Source: Pseudomonadota bacterium (lineage in GTDB: Bacteria; Pseudomonadota; Alphaproteobacteria; Sphingomonadales; SMXR01). Taken from it: DNA of 10,446 nucleotides. The notes below the pieces were generated by a model. It was not told where the DNA came from, did not search any database, and was given only the letters and a program-made list of their open reading frames with translations. Made by a program: the position numbers and the translations under genes. This document shows positions 2 to 10,440 of the stretch, in pieces. The DNA lies in NCBI GenBank assembly GCA_022568115.1, contig JADFFP010000022.1, positions 1-10,446 of the forward strand. Direction: 5' to 3'. Position 1 is the first letter of the stretch; every line of letters begins with the position of its first letter.

Positions 2-853
2 AAAATGCTCGCTAAAATCCCCGAAAAAGAACGCAACAGGTGTTTCCATTACAAACCGGTATGGCAACGCTTTCTGATTGTCCTTGCCGGTCCGGCAATT
101 AACCTGGTTTTTGCGGTATTTCTGTTCACCGGACTTTTTGCGGCGGTAGGGGAATATGTGGCAGAGCCGGTGATCAGTGAAATTACCCCGGATTCAGCTG
201 CCGATATGGCGGGGTTTCAGGTCGGTGACCGGTTTTTGGAAGTGAATGGAAATAGCATCGAGACCTTTAACAATATCAGACCGATCGTCGCCATGCGCGC
301 CGGTGAGGAAACCTTGTTTGTGATAGAGCGCGGCGGGCGCATCATTGAACTGGTCGCCACCCCCGAAAAAGTTGTCGAGAAAGATCCCCTTGGCAACGAC
401 ATTTCAATTGGCCGGCTGGGGGTTTCCTCGACCTCCATGATGAAACGGGAATATAATATTTTTGAAGCATTTGCCGCCGGGACCAAGCGCACCTACACCA
501 CTTTTGGATTGATGATTGAAACCATTGGCCGCCTGATCACCGGGTCCGTTTCGATAAAGGAACTGGGAGGGCCGGTAAAAATTGCCCAGTTTACAGGGTA
601 TTCGGCATCACTGGGTTTATGGTCTTTTATCTCTTTTATGGCGCTGATTTCTGTGAATTTGGGATTGGTGAACCTGCTGCCCATTCCGTTACTGGACGGG
701 GGCCACTTATTGTTTTATAGCATCGAAGCGGCCAAAGGCAGTCCGATCAGCGTAAAAGCCCAGGAAATGGCGGCCATGATAGGTCTTGCATTTGTTCTGG
801 GATTGTTGTTTGTCCTTACCTGGAATGATTTACGATTGCCTGGACTAAGTTGA
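2..853 (+). CDS. rseP: RseP-family site-2 zinc metalloprotease, N-terminus missing (window edge)
   Basis: This is an intramembrane M50 (site-2) protease. In this family it cleaves the membrane-bound anti-sigma factor after a first periplasmic cut, releasing an extracytoplasmic sigma factor. The frame is open from the first bases, so the gene continues to the left. About 284 codons are visible, and the missing part should carry the N-terminal HExxH zinc site. Counting from the Met at position 5: a hydrophobic segment with AGPAIN at residues 28-33, a PDZ domain at about 55-120 (AGFQVGDRFLEVNG core), a second conserved block at 188-200, and NLLPIPLLDGGHL at 223-235. The Asp of that LDG motif (D231) is the third zinc ligand of the family. 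A last membrane segment spans about 255-272. bamA follows after 71 bp, the standard alphaproteobacterial order. The Met at position 5 is internal, not the true start. Confidence 0.95.
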   Translation, partial: KMLAKIPEKERNRCFHYKPVWQRFLIVLAGPAINLVFAVFLFTGLFAAVGEYVAEPVISEITPDSAADMAGFQVGDRFLEVNGNSIETFNNIRPIVAMRAGEETLFVIERGGRIIELVATPEKVVEKDPLGNDISIGRLGVSSTSMMKREYNIFEAFAAGTKRTYTTFGLMIETIGRLITGSVSIKELGGPVKIAQFTGYSASLGLWSFISFMALISVNLGLVNLLPIPLLDGGHLLFYSIEAAKGSPISVKAQEMAAMIGLAFVLGLLFVLTWNDLRLPGLS

Positions 854-924: not shown

Positions 925-3291
925 GTGTATAAAAACACTGGCCAGAATTTATTTACGGTTTTTACCTTGGCTTTCCTTTTCCTGTTTGCGGCCCCGCCTG
1001 CCCCGGTTGCCCAGGAAGAATTTGATTTCGGCACAATTGAGCTCATTTCCGTGGTTGGGAACACGCGCATTGAGGCCAATACAATCGCCACTTACCTGAC
1101 CGTCAATGTGGGAGATTCTTTCGACCCCCAGGCAATTGACGCCAGCCTGAAAACCTTGTTCGCCACCGGTCTTTTTGCCGATGTCGTGATGGAGCGCAGC
1201 GGCAACACCCTGGTCATCCGGGTGATTGAAAATCCGATCATCAACCGGATAGTTTTTGAAGGCAACTCCAGGCTCAAGGAAGACGATTTTGTCGAGGAGG
1301 TGGAGCTCAGGTCGCGGATGATTTATACCCGTGCCAAGGTCCGTTCCGATGTCCAGCGGATTCTTGAACTGTACCGCCGCTCGGGCCGTTTCGCAGCGGT
1401 GGTTGAGCCCAAGGTGATCCAGCGCGAACAAAACCGTGTTGACCTGGTTTTTGAGATTTCCGAAGGCCCGAGAAGCCGCGTCAGCCGTATCAATTTTATC
1501 GGCAACAGGGTTTTCAGCGATAAAAAATTAAGGGGGGTTATCGCCACCAATGAAGCTCGTTGGTGGAAATTTTTTGCCTCCAACGACACCTATGACCCGG
1601 ACCGTTTGCAGTTTGACCGCGAGGAGATCAGGCAACACTACCTGGACAGCGGTTATGCCGATATCAGGATTGTTTCGGCGGTGGCCGAATTGACCCCGGA
1701 CCAAAGGGACTTTTTCATTACCTTCGTGGTCAATGAGGGCGAGAAATATTCCTTTGGCGTAATTTCGGTGGAAAGCGATATCAAGGCCCTGCCGGAAAAA
1801 CTTATCCAGAACATGGTGACGGTCGAGGAAGGCCAGACCTATAGCGCTACCAAGGTTGAGAATACAGTTGAAAACATCACCAACATTGCCGGTATTCTCG
1901 GGTTCGCGTTCCTTGATATTCGCCCGGAGGTCGAAAGAGACCGGCAAAACCGGACCATTTCCATCAATTTCAGAGTGTTCGAGGTTCCAAGAACTTATAT
2001 TGAGCGGATAGATATTCACGGTAACGTCCGGACCCTCGACAGGGTTATCCGGCGTGAATTCCGCCTCGCGGAAGGGGATGCCTTTAACTCGCTCAGGGTC
2101 GAGCGTTCGGAACAGCGTCTCCAGCTTCTCGGCTTCTTCCGGGAAGTGGAAATCGAACAGTTGCCCGGGTCACAAGATGATTTGGTGGTTCTGGACGTCA
2201 CCGTTGAAGAGCAGGCGACCGGTGAGTTTTCGCTCGGGTTCGGCTACTCCAGCTTTGACGGATTTATTTTTGACACCAGTATTTCCGAGAGGAATTTCCT
2301 CGGCAAAGGACAGCAAATCACTTTGGGGTTCTTGCTTTCCAGCCGGCGGAAAAACATCAACATTGCTTTTACCCAGCCCTATTTTCTGAACCGGAACATG
2401 ATTGCCGGCATCAATGTTTTCCGCCAGGACTTTAGTAACAGGGAAGCCGGGTTTGAAACCAAAACAACGGGGATCACCCTGAACCTGCGCTTTCCGATTA
2501 CCGAATACATCAGCCTGGGAACACGCTATACCCTTCGCCAGGACAAAATTCAGATTCCCGAACAGTTCCTGTTCAACCCTTTTCTTGCGGAATCAGTCGG
2601 AAACAATACCACTTCGTCGATCGGATATTCCATCAGTTATATCAATCTGGATGACTTCCGTTTCCCCACGAAGGGTCAACAGATTATTTTCAGTCAGGAT
2701 TTTGCCGGGGTGGGCGGCAATATCAGATATCTGCGCTCCAGTCTTGAAGCTGATTTGTACCGCCCGATCACCGGCGAATGGGTGGTGCACGTAGGACTTG
2801 AGGCCGGCTATATTAAGGGCCTTGGTCAGCGGGTCCGGATTAATGACCGGTTTTTCCTTGGCAACCCGCGCTTCAGGGGTTTTGACGTTGCCGGGGTTGG
2901 CCCGATTGATACCTCTACTGGCCAGTTCCTGGGTGGCAATATTTTCTATGTTGCCACCGTCGGGGTGCTGATCCCGCTGGGTGACTTTGCCGAAGAACTT
3001 GGGTTCCAGCTTAGTGCTTATGTTGATGCCGGAACCCTGTATAATGCCGAGTTGCCTGAGTTTCTTATTAACTGTGTTCCGGATGAAATGCAGGACTGCC
3101 GCATTCCGTTGTTTTTTGATAACGGCGATCCGATTGTTAGAGACAGCGGCGCCCTCAGGGTCGCTGTTGGCATTGGACTGATCTGGGATTCTCCGTTCGG
3201 GCCGGTCCGTCTTGATGTGGCGATGGCCATACTTAAACAGCCATTTGACAGAACACAAACCATTCAATTCAACGTTGGAACACGTTTTTAA
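925..3291 (+). CDS. bamA: BamA, outer membrane protein assembly factor
   Basis: This Omp85 protein is the core of the BAM complex, which folds and inserts beta-barrel proteins into the outer membrane. The start is a GTG at 925 preceded by AGAGGA at 913-918, a 6-nt spacing; no closer ATG fits. Residues 1-30 form a signal peptide (hydrophobic core LFTVFTLAFLFLF, probable cleavage near AQ-EE). Five POTRA repeats run roughly over 36-102, 103-181, 184-271, 275-353 and 357-429. The barrel covers about 432-788. The loop-6 motif is RFRGF at 649-653 (the family's V/IRGF), DFRFPTKGQQ marks a conserved strand, and the chain ends in Phe (NVGTRF), the usual C-terminal beta-signal. At 788 aa the length is normal. 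ompH follows after 18 bp, so the two are probably co-transcribed. No frameshift or truncation is seen. Confidence 0.97.
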   Translation: MYKNTGQNLFTVFTLAFLFLFAAPPAPVAQEEFDFGTIELISVVGNTRIEANTIATYLTVNVGDSFDPQAIDASLKTLFATGLFADVVMERSGNTLVIRVIENPIINRIVFEGNSRLKEDDFVEEVELRSRMIYTRAKVRSDVQRILELYRRSGRFAAVVEPKVIQREQNRVDLVFEISEGPRSRVSRINFIGNRVFSDKKLRGVIATNEARWWKFFASNDTYDPDRLQFDREEIRQHYLDSGYADIRIVSAVAELTPDQRDFFITFVVNEGEKYSFGVISVESDIKALPEKLIQNMVTVEEGQTYSATKVENTVENITNIAGILGFAFLDIRPEVERDRQNRTISINFRVFEVPRTYIERIDIHGNVRTLDRVIRREFRLAEGDAFNSLRVERSEQRLQLLGFFREVEIEQLPGSQDDLVVLDVTVEEQATGEFSLGFGYSSFDGFIFDTSISERNFLGKGQQITLGFLLSSRRKNINIAFTQPYFLNRNMIAGINVFRQDFSNREAGFETKTTGITLNLRFPITEYISLGTRYTLRQDKIQIPEQFLFNPFLAESVGNNTTSSIGYSISYINLDDFRFPTKGQQIIFSQDFAGVGGNIRYLRSSLEADLYRPITGEWVVHVGLEAGYIKGLGQRVRINDRFFLGNPRFRGFDVAGVGPIDTSTGQFLGGNIFYVATVGVLIPLGDFAEELGFQLSAYVDAGTLYNAELPEFLINCVPDEMQDCRIPLFFDNGDPIVRDSGALRVAVGIGLIWDSPFGPVRLDVAMAILKQPFDRTQTIQFNVGTRF

Positions 3292-5708: not shown

Positions 5709-7124
5709 CTAGTGTGCTTGTTCTTCAATCCGCGCCAGGCTTTGCTCTTTTCCGAGAACCGCCATAACCTCAAAAACACTTGGTGAAATATGACTGCCGG
5801 TCAAGGCCGCGCGCAACGGTCCGGCAACCATCCCAAGTTTGACGCCCGCTTTTTCAGCGAACCTTTTGACCCTGTCCAAAAGCGCCTGTTCTTCCCAGCT
5901 TGGTTCTTCCTTGAGCGCCGGGATAAGCCGCCTCAGCAACTCTTGGCCGTCATCATCAAAAAGCTGTTCAGCTTTTTCCGTCAAGGACAAAGGCCGGTCT
6001 GCAAAATAAAACGAAGCATTCCGTGCTAGTTCAATAAGCGTTTTTGCCCGTTCTTTCAAGCCCGGCATGGCTTTCAGGAAACGGATTCTTTCCTTGTCGG
6101 AGAGCGGCCGCCTCAATTCCTTCTCCAGGAAGGGCCGGCATTTGCTCGCCAGGTGCGAATCTTCAGCGCTGCGGATATAAATCCCGTTCAGGTTTTCCAG
6201 CTTTTTCAGGTCAAACCGGGCCGGGCCCTTGCCGATGCCCTCCAGGGTAAACCATTCCATGGCTTGGCGGGAGCTAAAAACTTCATGATCCTGGTAGCCC
6301 CAGCCCAGCTTGGACAGGTAATTTCTGAGCGCCTCAGGCAAATAACCCAGCTCCCGGTAGGCCTCGATGCCAAGCGCCCCATGGCGTTTTGACAGCTTGG
6401 CGCCATCGGGGCCGTGGATCAGCGGGATATGGGCGAAGGTTGGCGGGGTCCAGTCCAGGGCTTTGTACAGCTGGGTCTGGCGGAAGGAGTTGGTCAGGTG
6501 ATCATCGCCGCGAATGACGTGGGTAATAGCCATGTCGTGGTCATCAACCACCACCGACAGCATATAGGTGGGGGTGCCGTCAGAGCGCAGCAGCACCATG
6601 TCGTCGAGCTGGTCATTGGGAACTGTGACCGCGCCCTGAACCGCGTCTTTAATGGTCGTAACGTTTTTCTGCCCGGTCTTGAGGCGGATGACCGGGTTAA
6701 CGCCCTCAGGCGCTTCGGCCGGGTCGCGGTCGCGCCAGCGCCCGTCATAGCCCATCGGCTGGCCGGCGGCGCGCGCTTTCCGGCGCATCTGATCCAATTC
6801 TTCCGGGGTGGTGTAACACTTGTAGGCCTTGCCCAGCCGCAGCAGGGTTTCGGCCACCTCCCGGTGGCGCTGATCAAACCGGGACTGGAAATAAACCTCA
6901 TCATCCCAGTCGATCCCGAGCCAGGTCAGCCCGCCGATGATCGCCTCAATGGCCTCTTTGGTGGAGCGCTTTTGGTCGGTATCCTCGATCCGCAGCAGAA
7001 ATTTGCCACCCCGGCCTCTGGTGAACAGCCAGTTAAACAGCGCCGTCCGAGCCCCGCCGATATGCAAAAAACCGGAAGGCGACGGGGCAAAACGGGTGAC
7101 TATCTTATGGTTTTTATTTGCCAT
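5709..7124 (-). CDS. gltX: Glutamate--tRNA ligase (GluRS)
   Basis: This class Ic aminoacyl-tRNA synthetase charges tRNA-Glu and, in bacteria without GlnRS, also tRNA-Gln for later amidation. The ATP-binding signature is HIGG at residues 21-24 within [14 protein letters not shown], and the KMSKS-type loop is KLSKR at 243-247. RIEDTD at 45-50 and the ND-type [11 protein letters not shown] segment (203-213) are also typical. The C-terminal anticodon-binding helical domain runs from about 310 to 471. In the connective region only one Cys (C103) stands where the E. coli enzyme has its CxC...CxH zinc site, so zinc binding is unlikely. Alphaproteobacteria often have two GluRS paralogues, and I cannot tell whether this one is the discriminating form. 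The ATG at 7124 has only a weak Shine-Dalgarno match upstream, in an AT-rich leader. gltA follows 15 bp downstream. Confidence 0.95.
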
Positions 7125-7249: not shown

Positions 7250-9325
7250 TTGGAAAAGTTCAGAATATTTCTGGCGGAACTTTTTGAGCTGGAAAAAAAG
7301 GCGCTGTTTTACTGGAGCGCGGTTCTCTATGGAAGCGGCGTTGGAATTTATTTCTCGCTTTCATTTGAACCGCCGCTGGCCCCGGTCATTCTGGGCCTGG
7401 TGGTCCTGTTCCTGATTCAGTCTTTTGTCCGGGCCCGGGCCGCCCTTTTACTTGGTTTAAGGGCATTGCTGATCCTGTTGGCGGGGTTTGGCGCCGGCGC
7501 CTTGAGGACCAGCTTGGTGGACACGACAACCCTTTCCCGGGAAACCTGGGCGATTGCCCTGGAAGGGGTGGTCAGTGTCGCCGAAGAGCGCATTGAAGAC
7601 GGCCTGCGCCTGACCCTGAAAGGGGTAAGCTATCCCGATAATCCCGGCCAGACGCTGCCCGGCAAGATCCGCATTACGGTGCGCACCCAAGCCCCGGAGC
7701 TGGGCCCGGGAGACGTCATCAGGACCCGGGCGGTTTTAATGCCGCTGCCGGGGCCGGTTCTGCCGGGCGGGTATGATTTCGGCCGCCAGTTGTGGTTCCG
7801 GGGACTTGGGGCGGTCGGGTTCGCGGTGGCCCCGGTGGAGGCGGTCTCGAGGCCGGAGAGAATCCTGGAAGAAAAAATAGGGGCGTTCCGGCAAAAAATG
7901 TGGCTCCGGATCACCACCGCCGTCCCGGGCGAGAACGGGGCGGTGGCGGCGGCCCTGATCACCGGCATTCGTGACGGCATTCCCGAACGGGTTTCGAATA
8001 ATATGCGGATTGCCGGACTGGCGCACCTGCTGGCCATTTCCGGCCTCCATATGGCGCTGATCACCGGGGTTCTGTTTTTTGCCCTGAGGGCCGGCATGGC
8101 CTTTTTCCCGAAGCTGGCGTTGAAACATCCAATCCGGAAATACGCCGCCATCGGCGCCTTTATCGGCGCCAGCGGGTATCTGGTCCTGAGCGGCGCCAGT
8201 ATCTCCACCCAGCGGGCCTTTATCATGGTCAGCATTGTGCTGCTGGCGGTCCTGACCGACCGCAAGGCGATTTCCATGCGCTCGGTGACGCTGGCCGCGA
8301 TCGCGATCCTGACGTTTACCCCGGAAGCCGTGCTGCACCCCAGTTTCCAGATGTCTTTCGCCGCCGTCACCGGGCTGGTGGCCGGCTATTCCTGGGCCCA
8401 GCCGCGCTTAAGCCGCCTGTTCCACGCCAACCCCGGGTTTCTGGCCAGGGTCCGGCTTTATATGCTGGGGGTGCTGATCTCCACGCTGATCGCCGAGATC
8501 AGCATCGGACCGGTCGCCTTCTATCACTTCGGGCGCTTTTCCGCCTTTGGCCTGCTGGCCAATATGGCGGCGGTCCCGGTCATGGCTTTTTGGGTGATGC
8601 CGATGGGCCTGGTGGGTCTGGTGTTAACTCCGTTCGGGCTTGATTTGTGGGCCTGGAAGGGGATGGCCGCCGGGACCGGTTTGATTTTGGATGTGGCGGA
8701 ACAGATCGCCGCCCTGCCGGGGGCCGATTTCTGGGCGCCGGAATTTCCCTTTTCCTCCTTCCTGCTGCTGGTGTTGGCCGGTCTGTGGCTGTGCCTGTGG
8801 CAGGGAAAGCGTCTCCGCCTGATGTTTGTGGCGCCGCTTGGCCTGGCTTTGGTTATTTACTTCAGTCACGATCTGCCGGAGGTGGTGATCAATGCCGAGG
8901 GGGACCTGGTGGCCCTCAAGGGCCCGGACGGGAGGTTTTATTTCAACACGCTCACCAGAAGCCGCTTTGACCGGGGCATCTGGCAGCGCCATTTTGCCGA
9001 AAAGGAAGCCTTAAGTTTCAGGGATTTCCCGGAAGGCGGCGGGCTGGCCTGTGATCCGCTCGGCTGCCTTTACCAAGCTCCCTCCGGGAAAGTAATCGCC
9101 ATATCCACTCAGCCGGAGGCTTTTGCCGCCGATTGCTTCCGCGCCGATGTGATTCTGACCGCGCATTACGCGCCGTTTCCCTGCAAGGACAGTAAAATCG
9201 TCATTGATAAAACCCGGCTGCGGCGCGGCGGCGCCCATACCCTGAGTTTCGATCAGGAGGGGGTGATCATCCGCTCGGTCACCGGCGAGCGCGGAATGCG
9301 CCCGTGGAGTAAAGTTTCCGAATAG
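7250..9325 (+). CDS. comEC: ComEC/Rec2-family DNA-uptake channel protein, alphaproteobacterial short form
   Basis: ComEC proteins form the inner-membrane channel for single-stranded DNA during natural transformation. The start is a TTG at 7250, 9 nt after AAGGGGGG (7233-7240); an in-frame stop at 7232-7234 leaves no other upstream choice. The 691-aa chain begins with membrane segments at about 20-90 and a soluble OB-like region at about 95-200. The Competence core follows, with its hallmark HLLAISGLHM at 259-268, then GASISTQRAFIM, and further membrane helices to about residue 540. The C-terminal ~150 residues sit where the beta-lactamase-like nuclease domain lies in Bacillus ComEC. No HxHxDH metal site is visible, only the conserved LTAHYAPF...IVIDKTRLRRGGAHTL segment. 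This short form is common in Alphaproteobacteria, and whether it supports transformation cannot be read from sequence. lexA is convergent downstream, across a repeat. Confidence 0.9.
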   Translation: MEKFRIFLAELFELEKKALFYWSAVLYGSGVGIYFSLSFEPPLAPVILGLVVLFLIQSFVRARAALLLGLRALLILLAGFGAGALRTSLVDTTTLSRETWAIALEGVVSVAEERIEDGLRLTLKGVSYPDNPGQTLPGKIRITVRTQAPELGPGDVIRTRAVLMPLPGPVLPGGYDFGRQLWFRGLGAVGFAVAPVEAVSRPERILEEKIGAFRQKMWLRITTAVPGENGAVAAALITGIRDGIPERVSNNMRIAGLAHLLAISGLHMALITGVLFFALRAGMAFFPKLALKHPIRKYAAIGAFIGASGYLVLSGASISTQRAFIMVSIVLLAVLTDRKAISMRSVTLAAIAILTFTPEAVLHPSFQMSFAAVTGLVAGYSWAQPRLSRLFHANPGFLARVRLYMLGVLISTLIAEISIGPVAFYHFGRFSAFGLLANMAAVPVMAFWVMPMGLVGLVLTPFGLDLWAWKGMAAGTGLILDVAEQIAALPGADFWAPEFPFSSFLLLVLAGLWLCLWQGKRLRLMFVAPLGLALVIYFSHDLPEVVINAEGDLVALKGPDGRFYFNTLTRSRFDRGIWQRHFAEKEALSFRDFPEGGGLACDPLGCLYQAPSGKVIAISTQPEAFAADCFRADVILTAHYAPFPCKDSKIVIDKTRLRRGGAHTLSFDQEGVIIRSVTGERGMRPWSKVSE

Positions 9326-9497: not shown

Positions 9498-10193
9498 TTA
9501 GTATTTCCTGATTAGCCCGACCAGCTTGCCTTGGATCTGGACCTGATCGGCGGGCAGGATCTGGGTGGAATGATCGGGGTTTGCCGGGGTCAGGGCCACC
9601 TGGCCGCCCTTTTTATGCAGGGTCTTGAGGGTCGCTTCCTCATTCTCCACCAGGGCCACCACCACATCGCCGTTATCGGCGGTGGTGCATTTTCTGATGA
9701 TCACGGTGTCGCCATCAAGGATTCCCAAATCGACCATCGAATCGCCGGAAATCTCCAGCGCATAATGCTCGCCCGCACCCAGCATACCGGGCGGCATGGA
9801 AATATGCTCATCGGCATTCTCCAGCGCCTCGATCGGCATCCCGGCGGCAATCTTGCCGTGGAGCGGGATGTTGATGTTGGCCGCGACCGCGGTGCCGGCC
9901 ACCACTTCCTTCGGGCCGGATTTGCCGAACGGGGCGCTGACCACCTTGGAATCGCTTAAAGCGGCATTTGGCCCGACCCCTTCGGGCAGCCGGATAATCT
10001 CGATCGCCCGCGCCCGGTTGGGCAAGCGTTTCAGGAAGCCGCGTTCCTCGAGCGCGCCGACCAGGCGGTGAATGCCCGATTTGGAATGCAATCCCAGCGC
10101 ATCCTTCATTTCCTCATAGGACGGGGGAATGCCTTCCTGTTGCACGCGGTGGTGAATGAACAGCAGCAAATCGCGTTGTTTTCTGGTGAGCAT
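9498..10193 (-). CDS. lexA: LexA, SOS response repressor/autoprotease
   Basis: LexA represses SOS genes and cleaves itself when stimulated by RecA filaments on single-stranded DNA. The 231-aa protein has an N-terminal winged helix at about 1-68 (MLTRKQRDLL start, IPPSYEEM, recognition helix around GLHSKSGIHRLVGALEERG). A linker of about 45 residues follows, longer than in E. coli but usual for this class. The cleavage bond is A117-G118 (KIAAGMP). The catalytic Ser is S152 (ISGDSMVDLGI) and the catalytic Lys is K190 (EEATLK). All peptidase S24 residues are intact, so it should be active. The ATG at 10193 is preceded by AAAAGGAT (complement of 10201-10208), about 7 nt away. An SOS box 39 bp upstream shows autoregulation. 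It converges on comEC, a neighbourhood frequently kept in Alphaproteobacteria. Confidence 0.97.
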   Translation of the reverse strand: MLTRKQRDLLLFIHHRVQQEGIPPSYEEMKDALGLHSKSGIHRLVGALEERGFLKRLPNRARAIEIIRLPEGVGPNAALSDSKVVSAPFGKSGPKEVVAGTAVAANINIPLHGKIAAGMPIEALENADEHISMPPGMLGAGEHYALEISGDSMVDLGILDGDTVIIRKCTTADNGDVVVALVENEEATLKTLHKKGGQVALTPANPDHSTQILPADQVQIQGKLVGLIRKY

Positions 10194-10229: not shown

Positions 10230-10258
10230 ATGTTCTCTTATTGTTCCGTGTTTGTCAA
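10230..10258 (-). promoter_or_regulatory. Predicted lexA sigma-70 promoter
   Basis: On the reverse strand a perfect -35 TTGACA (complement of 10253-10258) is followed after 17 bp by GAACAT (complement of 10230-10235), a weak -10 that matches the consensus at three of six bases. The SOS box overlaps the spacer and the -10. A better -10 match, TATAAT (complement of 10273-10278), lies further upstream but has only a poor -35 (CTCACT), so a second start there is possible but weaker. Confidence 0.6.
10232..10246. promoter_or_regulatory. LexA operator (SOS box, GTTC-N7-GTTC)
   Basis: GTTC at 10232-10235 and GTTC at 10243-10246 are separated by exactly seven bases, the alphaproteobacterial direct-repeat SOS box. 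A third, imperfect half site (GTTT at 10221-10224) lies one more 11-bp step toward lexA, giving a GTTT-N7-GTTC-N7-GTTC tandem. It lies 39 bp before the lexA start codon and covers the spacer and -10 of the predicted promoter, as expected for autorepression. Confidence 0.88.
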
Positions 10259-10372
10259 GGTCTCACAAGGCTATTATATACTTGGCAAAACCAAAAGTGA
10301 GCCTGGAACAAGGTAATTTGAATTACTGACAGGAATTAATAGACAGTTTATTAAAGATTTGATAAAAGTGAG

Positions 10373-10440
10373 TGGAGCCAGTCGGAGTTGAACCGACGTT
10401 TCCGGGTCTAAACTCCAGAAACGTTACCACAACTGGCCCC
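10373..10440 (-). ncRNA. Unusual 68-nt tRNA-like RNA with alanine-type acceptor and tmRNA-like T-loop
   Basis: Read on the reverse strand, the 68 nt fold as a compact cloverleaf. The acceptor stem is GGGGCCA/TGGCTCC, 7 bp with a G3:U70 wobble, and the discriminator is A73. The D region GTTGTGGTAAC can make only a 3-bp stem (GTT/AAC) with no linker to the acceptor, but it keeps the GG needed for the elbow. An 8-bp stem GTTTCTGG/CCGGAAAC carries the 9-base loop AGTTTAGAC. The T arm GTCGG-TTCAACT-CCGAC follows with no variable loop. CCA is not encoded. Two G:U pairs become A:C mismatches on the plus strand, so the reverse strand is the real one. G3:U70 plus A73 is the known alanine identity set of tRNA-Ala and tmRNA, and the T-loop TTCAACT is the E. 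coli tmRNA T-loop. A canonical tRNA is unlikely, because the anticodon stem is too long and the D stem too short. It may be a tmRNA-domain relic or paralogue, or an aberrant tRNA with UUA in the loop. Confidence 0.65.

Follow-up and report, generated by a model that had tools for sequence, protein, structure and literature searches.

Nonsense suppressor tRNAs that are phage-borne and carry a stop anticodon are known, and alanyl-tRNA synthetase (AlaRS) does not read the anticodon. Full-length tmRNAs, too, are already described in phages in the part of the published work considered here (PMC9004378). The locus studied here lies in a DNA stretch of 10,446 nt (the window), which is the entire contig C271 of an alphaproteobacterial MAG of 1.59 Mb (71% complete). 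Its reverse strand bears, at 10373..10440, a compact tRNA-like gene of 68 nt with alanine identity, the anticodon UUA and no encoded CCA. An earlier note, made from the sequence alone, took this element for a stand-alone tmRNA tRNA-like domain, perhaps a relic, and listed an unusual tRNA among several options; the last option is the one favoured by the alanine signals and by the kinship with compact phage tRNAs. The window element looks like a compact phage-type alanine tRNA gene with a stop-codon anticodon, and not like a tmRNA relic.

The acceptor stem, read from the DNA, consists of the 5' strand GGGGCCA (nt 1-7; 10434..10440), which holds the G3 of G3:U70, and the 3' strand UGGCUCC with U70, followed by A73 (10373..10380); all 7 of 7 pairs form, G3:U70 included. 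The D arm GUUG-UGG-UAAC (nt 8-18; 10423..10433) abuts the acceptor with zero nucleotides between them. It is followed by an extended anticodon arm (nt 19-43; 10398..10422) of 8 bp plus an A.C pair and a 7-nt loop, and by the T arm GUCGG-UUCAACU-CCGAC (nt 44-60; 10381..10397), which has no variable loop before it; all these parts lie on the reverse strand. The nucleotides 8-9 and the variable loop of a canonical tRNA are missing, and the stems abut. The fold energy of the element has a z of -5.09, with 0 of 200 shuffles as low, and together with the 7-bp acceptor, G3:U70, A73 and the T arm this confirms the 68-nt tRNA-like element as real; its proposed alanine identity is likewise upheld by G3:U70 and A73 as read from the DNA. 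The claim of little or no D stem needs correction, for GUUG-UGG-UAAC can pair beside the acceptor and this stem covaries in relatives. The long arm with a 9-base loop stands in part: the arm indeed has 8 bp (GUUUCUGG/CCGGAAAC) closed by 9 nt (AGUUUAGAC), but these nine parse as A, an anticodon-like 7-nt GUUUAGA and C, the A and C forming the A.C pair at 31-39.

In the register that we infer, the 7-nt loop (10407..10413, reverse strand; identical in the phage relatives L200, L204 and L208) has U33, G37 and A38, and the anticodon UUA at 10409-10411, so that a stop anticodon is flanked by U33 and a purine at 37, as in suppressor tRNAs. The alanine signals G3:U70 and A73 and a 7-nt anticodon-type loop with UUA are found together in this one element; unusual features are its G32 and, at 31-39, the A.C pair. 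UUUAGAC would be a textbook loop of tRNA-Leu(UAG), and the anticodon might accordingly be placed one base over, as UAG, which would read the leucine codon CUA and put alanine at a sense codon. The relatives L197 (UGC) and L188 (UAC) fit such a shift as well, but it breaks the loop-adjacent stem and, in the CUCUAGA loops of L302, L185 and L321, puts C at the position of U33, so that we consider it scarcely credible. In silico, the minimum-energy fold of the window RNA is a single long hairpin (-34.9) and not the cloverleaf (-28.9), and the T arm has a probability of 0.0008 in a model without coaxial stacking and modification. By the same kind of calculation, the T arm is also disfavoured in L320 (0.09) and L321 (0.33) and favoured in seven relatives (0.67-0.96).

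The tmRNA model RF00023 gives the window element 20.6 bits (E 9.5e-7 in 247 nt; gathering cut-off 47) and the tRNA model RF00005 gives it 22.9 bits (gathering cut-off 29). ARAGORN makes zero tRNA calls over the window, and none of the Rfam families reaches its own cut-off there. With these tools, which the earlier note had named as checks, the element passes neither as a tmRNA nor as an ordinary tRNA. The element has the alanine acceptor of tmRNA (G3:U70, A73); the mRNA-like domain with tag and pseudoknots is absent from its 68 nt with their hairpin-closed arm, and it is linear rather than laid out in two permuted pieces like alpha_tmRNA (RF01849). Its T-loop TTCAACT was called tmRNA-type before; the TTCGAC motif of tmRNA is absent from the element. 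The permuted ssrA that was expected elsewhere in the genome is indeed present and is an ordinary one (C294:4642-5004, 260.7 bits, tag ANDNEALAVAA). A tmRNA relic was rejected on the scores under the cut-offs and the missing motif. An integron attC site was also rejected, since inspection by eye shows no box pair at the foot of the palindrome, where an attC would have one.

More generally, that the element is a tmRNA tRNA-like domain, whether a relic or a mini-tmRNA, is very improbable. Its RF00023 match of low E-value and those of the relatives L328 (37.2 bits), L321 (33.5 bits), L330 (32.3 bits) and L320 (28.9 bits) speak for this identity, as does the occurrence of true mini-tmRNAs in phages; against it, all family members stay below 47 bits and have no TTCGAC, the D stem covaries, and the loop is a 7-nt anticodon-like one. 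Among seven phage contigs tried, RF00023 exceeds 47 bits within about 70 nt in L315 at 650-718(-) (62.0 bits), L252 at 8246-8317(+) (59.4 bits), L207 at 6328-6397(-) (58.2 bits), L240 at 9912-9981(-) (57.7 bits) and L186 at 1914-1983(+) (56.2 bits), and falls just short in L198 (45.8 bits) and L289 (44.0 bits). A dedicated phage scan gave, among the matches listed, 98 of 119 loci with full acceptor and T stems; G3:U70 and A73 are present in all 98 such loci among the matches listed, the pattern having fixed G1-G4 and not U70 or A73. In 18 of 20 picked contigs a match 66-83 nt long exceeds the tmRNA cut-off; L400 and L441 fail. These RNAs measure 59-80 nt to N73 and have the TTCGAC motif, usually with GGAC before the T arm; their P2 is hairpin-closed, often with an inner hairpin. 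The earlier note imagined molecules like these phage mini-tmRNAs, to which the window element does not belong; the concept of a stand-alone tmRNA tRNA-like domain is not supported for this element and is real in many phage contigs. Such molecules would make the role of the tRNA-like half of tmRNA testable.

The window element has its relatives in uncultured phages. A pattern scan of IMG/VR for short GGGGC...GCYCCA tRNA-like genes yielded 39 contigs (379 kb) preselected by compact shape, in which a covariance model built on the window element alone (R1) scores 64.9 bits in L204, 61.7 bits in L208 and 46 bits in L200, with lower scores in L197 (41.9 bits), L183 (40.3 bits) and L188 (37.4 bits). 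A wider viral scan without loop constraint, its members counted among the matches listed, and a loop-fixed viral scan (NTYTAGAYC, acceptor 3' strand left free; 13 stretches) together added L290, L302, L320, L321/L324 and L323, again among the matches listed. In the loop-fixed scan, 10 of 10 compact matches (9 distinct sequences) have U70 and A73, neither of which was fixed, and L318, L319 and L322 are ordinary-shaped by eye. Acceptor pair 4 of L330 is C-G instead of G-C, with G3:U70 kept. Fifteen members can be parsed into a 7-bp acceptor, a 5-bp T arm with little or no variable loop, a D arm that abuts the acceptor, its 3-4 bp closing a GG-containing loop of 3-5 nt, and an anticodon arm of mostly 7-9 pairs, some of them bulged or mismatched. 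The outer three D pairs are complete in 14 of the 15 (2000 shuffles: mean 4.4, maximum 10), in a parse where L174 is shifted by one base and the D and T arms of L202 are imperfect. Structural parses and model alignments were used for the members; a MAFFT alignment misplaced the acceptors.

In a model-fitted alignment of 16 phage matches, which includes two weak ones of L290, the covariation is 0.509 compared with 0.142 in shuffled and at most 0.101 in slid alignments. In the same alignment 92.6% of the cells pair, both sides change in 15 of 20 pairs, the anticodon-arm helix covaries, and the T-arm helix is paired in 100% of cells. The earlier note had asked for covariation among relatives: a DNA search of 59 relatives left the element unmatched, and the stems do covary in the phage relatives. 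Under a second model built from the 16 phage matches (R2), the window scores 70.8 bits (E 4.1e-12 within its genome), compared with 34.9 bits for Ala(CGC), the highest-scoring ordinary tRNA of the host; R2 is not fully independent of R1 because its training matches were gathered with R1. The window element and the phage-borne family are akin in sequence and in structure.

No second copy was found in the host genome, and among 385 class genomes the loop pattern occurs in the window alone. R1 has a match at E 1 or better in 169 of 385 class genomes and at E 0.01 in 20 of 396 order genomes, the window genome included in both; 19 class and 7 order loci of this kind were checked by ARAGORN, and 25 of the 26 are ordinary tRNAs, L140 being uncalled. 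R2 over 398 phylum genomes (E 1e-5, 12 candidates scored per genome) returns three matches, namely the window, L381 and L380. L381 is an ordinary tRNA by eye. L380 holds, at 1501-1568(+) (G911:C17), a compact G3:U70 tRNA-like gene of 49 bits with R2; it lies in an alphaproteobacterial chromosome, by eye near an hslV-like gene, and resembles the viral L287 and L314. A blastn search of phage and plasmid records gave no match spanning the window element, a blastn search of the relatives L204 and L208 against phage records gave none covering their elements, and exact element patterns occur 0 times in the viral contigs.

The same architecture is found in a wider class of phage tRNAs. Strict scanning of viral loci totalling 1.43 Mb, which had partly been picked for GGGG...CTCCA or T[CT]TAGA, with a filter that demanded U33 and purine 37, yields 47 distinct compact tRNAs, and 0 in mononucleotide-shuffled sequence. 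ARAGORN recognises 25 of the 47 and misses 22. Their anticodons are sense in 40 and stop in 7, and 3 of the 7 stop cases stem from the loop-selected scan; the 29 with G3:U70 comprise 17 with alanine anticodons (UGC 13, GGC 2, CGC 2) and 7 with stop anticodons. Compact Ala, Arg, Trp, Cys and other tRNAs are seen in the viral loci L170-L324 (e.g., L229, L222, L304, L256 and L242). Judging from these sequences, phages seem to use the compact body plan as a functional type of tRNA, which favours decoding as the role of the window element.

The loops of the relatives vary around this plan. CUCUAGA in L302, L185b, L321 and L323 and UUCUAGA in L290 give the anticodon CUA, and CUUUAGA in L320 and GUUUAGA in the window, L200, L204 and L208 give UUA; the TAGA core was preset in the loop-fixed scan, and L200, L204, L208, L185b, L302 and L290 had been found earlier without loop constraint (among the matches listed). 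ARAGORN labels L320 as tRNA-Stop(tta) and L290 as cta. A protein-based viral scan for a downstream SprT-like neighbour, with no loop filter, covered 44 loci, and 12 of them carry, between them, 14 compact genes that have both G3:U70 and A73; in the other 32, some of which are short, the filter finds no gene with G3:U70, and G3:U70 is missing in two further rows (L367 and a second L359 match). The tRNA scans had already turned up eight of the 12 contigs, and the four new ones are L330, L332, L333 and L351, with the loops GUAUGGA (anticodon AUG) in L330, UUUUCGA (UUC) in L332, CUCUGGA (CUG; identical to L224) in L333 and an ambiguous loop in L351. The anticodons on the alanine-type bodies of the relatives are UUA, CUA, UAA, AUG, UUC and CUG. 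Tandem pairs of alanine-type compact genes, in which one anticodon is of the stop type (CUA or UUA) and the other is UAA, are seen in L185/L329 and L204/L331, and the UAA anticodon of these pairs would read the leucine codon UUA.

This diversity could be explained by a non-decoding role, in which the alanine-charged RNA would act as a decoy that occupies AlaRS, EF-Tu, a tRNA-cutting nuclease or the rescue system during phage takeover while its loop drifts. Syntenic copies that differ in all the anticodons listed above are in line with such drift, and so are the members that break the loop rule N-U-anticodon-R-A, namely L197 (GUUUGCA), L188 (GCUUACA), L351 and, with 8-nt loops, L174, L202 and L183. 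However, 11 of the 14 SprT-linked rows (by eye; not L351, L356 and L359) keep U33, purine 37 and A38 as positions 34-36 vary, which is expected of an anticodon in use, and the same body bears true alanine anticodons in other phages. We therefore regard the decoy as unlikely.

Integrase or recombinase genes adjoin the element in L330, L332, L331, L329 and L200, and one lies 2.1 kb off in L324; the nine ORFs of L290 include no integrase, bar a short partial profile match within the endolysin. A HELAH metallopeptidase-like gene follows downstream on the same strand in L302, L324, L197, L188 and L200, and the peptidase gene is on the opposite strand in L329, L331 and L351. The name SprT-like is based on one annotated homologue (MW202512, 47.6% identical) and the motif. 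For the neighbouring peptidases of L302, L324, L330 and L332, Pfam gives no family, and PHROGs gives families of unknown function alone for the neighbour peptidase. In MW202512 itself, RadC-like and SprT-like genes lie side by side, with no such tRNA in the stretch searched. Other same-strand genes downstream are RadC (L224) and Mom (L185), neighbours that would suit a decoy. Sigma70-like promoters of the TTGACA/TATAAT type (at most 2 mismatches, counted without a shuffle control) end 10-26 nt upstream in 5 of 15 members (L204, L208, L302, L324 and L224), and in the same five a palindrome is seen by eye between -35 and -10 (e.g., CCACTCAATGAGTGG); these palindromes suggest a repressor site on the tRNA promoter. 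In L200, L197, L188 and L208 an ATG stands a few codons upstream, and its frame runs through the tRNA-like element. In L174 (9538-9606(-)) and L202 (1855-1922(+)) most of the 3' flank is, by eye, complementary to the element's 5' end, and this downstream complement could compete with the tRNA fold.

For the family as a whole, it may be that temperate phages carry alanine-charged, connector-free tRNAs with varied anticodons, mostly stop or non-alanine, as a programmable device for mistranslation or read-through, driven by a repressible promoter close to the integrase. With AlaRS indifferent to the anticodon, a phage could in this way set alanine at any chosen codon. We offer this only tentatively, with more doubt than belief.

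The position of the window element bears on its origin. Only 6 nt separate its 5' end from the end of the contig, and its other flank is host lexA only, a gene of 231 aa at 9498..10193 on the reverse strand that lies downstream in the same direction, a relation of position only. The best relative of this lexA is 97% identical, and homology with that locus (L003, contig G002:C22) stops exactly at 10268, before the lexA promoter, whose -35 and LexA (SOS) box (GTTC-N7-GTTC, 10232..10246) are kept in the window on the host side of the junction. The element lies 104 nt past this edge, behind an AT-rich stretch (10269..10372) that is unmatched in the relative and is likely the end of inserted DNA. 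In L003 moeA stands immediately upstream of lexA, and a moeA homologue is upstream of lexA in 29 of 33 other lexA loci (23 of 26 in L004-L029 and 6 of 7 in L084-L090); the junction 10268/10269 parts lexA from its usual neighbour, right at the promoter edge. The only match of the relative's moeA DNA in the host genome (71% complete) is weak and 50 nt long. In 7 genus or family genomes the last 178 nt of the window are matched at E 0.57 at best, no phage or plasmid record covers them, and no phage genes were recognised on reading the ORFs of the window. The DNA beyond 10268 is probably foreign and would be the end of a prophage; the contig is possibly chimeric.

At such a place the element might also be a non-functional remnant or an attachment-site sequence of the integrated DNA. 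The integrase and recombinase genes by the elements of L330, L332, L331, L329, L200 and L324 would agree with this, and so would the acceptor, which is the same as that of host tRNA-Ala(GGC) at 7 of 7 pairs (8 of 28 host tRNAs compared, 28 being the tRNA matches above cut-off in the host genome). Yet the 3' 26 nt share only 21 of 26 positions with this tRNA, which is low for an att core, and the junction 10268/10269 is not inside a tRNA gene; moreover, the stems are intact in the window and covary in the relatives, and promoter-like sequences stand upstream in 5 of 15 members. A remnant or attachment site is thus improbable. On balance, and with moderate confidence, we favour a phage-derived compact tRNA gene that lies beside lexA, where foreign DNA (probably a prophage) ends, and that would suppress stops.

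If the window element is such a suppressor, its RNA would be excised from a transcript and would then receive CCA, the host AlaRS would charge it with alanine, and the charged RNA would insert alanine at UAA codons, and perhaps at UAG, while phage genes are expressed. Coding continues in frame after 6 of 34 TAG, 1 of 23 TAA and 4 of 113 TGA codons of the phage contigs, and so more often after TAG than after the other two. Read singly, the six TAG and the one TAA continuations resemble neighbouring genes that have a start of their own, and the phages therefore appear to follow the standard code. Among these TAG and TAA cases no gene was recognised as recoded or read through, a result that a decoy would also predict. 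From its sequence, we infer that the window element would suppress stops. If it decodes, it would be an alanine-inserting ochre/amber suppressor made from a minimal cloverleaf without connector nucleotides; it would be a test of how far the tRNA core can shrink and still work on the ribosome, and would raise the question of why temperate phages retain a lone suppressor without visible gene recoding. Common annotation tools overlook the element, which fails both in ARAGORN and at the Rfam cut-offs.

Compared with the known systems, the family shares with phage nonsense suppressor tRNAs its presence in phages and the UUA or CUA stop anticodon, and differs from them in being alanine-type, compact and connector-free, and in that no recoding was recognised in the phages examined. 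With the tmRNA tRNA-like domain (RF00023) the window element has in common the acceptor, A73 and a T arm right behind a long stem, whereas it is without TTCGAC and without the mRNA-like domain, can form a D stem and scores below the cut-off. Its acceptor with G3:U70 and A73 is the same as in host tRNA-Ala(GGC), and the acceptor of L330 is identical to that of host tRNA-Ala(CGC); unlike these alphaproteobacterial alanine tRNAs, it has no nucleotides 8-9, variable loop or encoded CCA, and it has an anticodon stem of 8 pairs (plus A.C) and a non-alanine anticodon. With the compact phage tRNAs it shares the D arm fused to the acceptor, the long anticodon stem and the short or absent variable loop, and it differs from most of them in its anticodon, which is sense in 40 of those 47 and of the stop type in the other 7 and in the window element.
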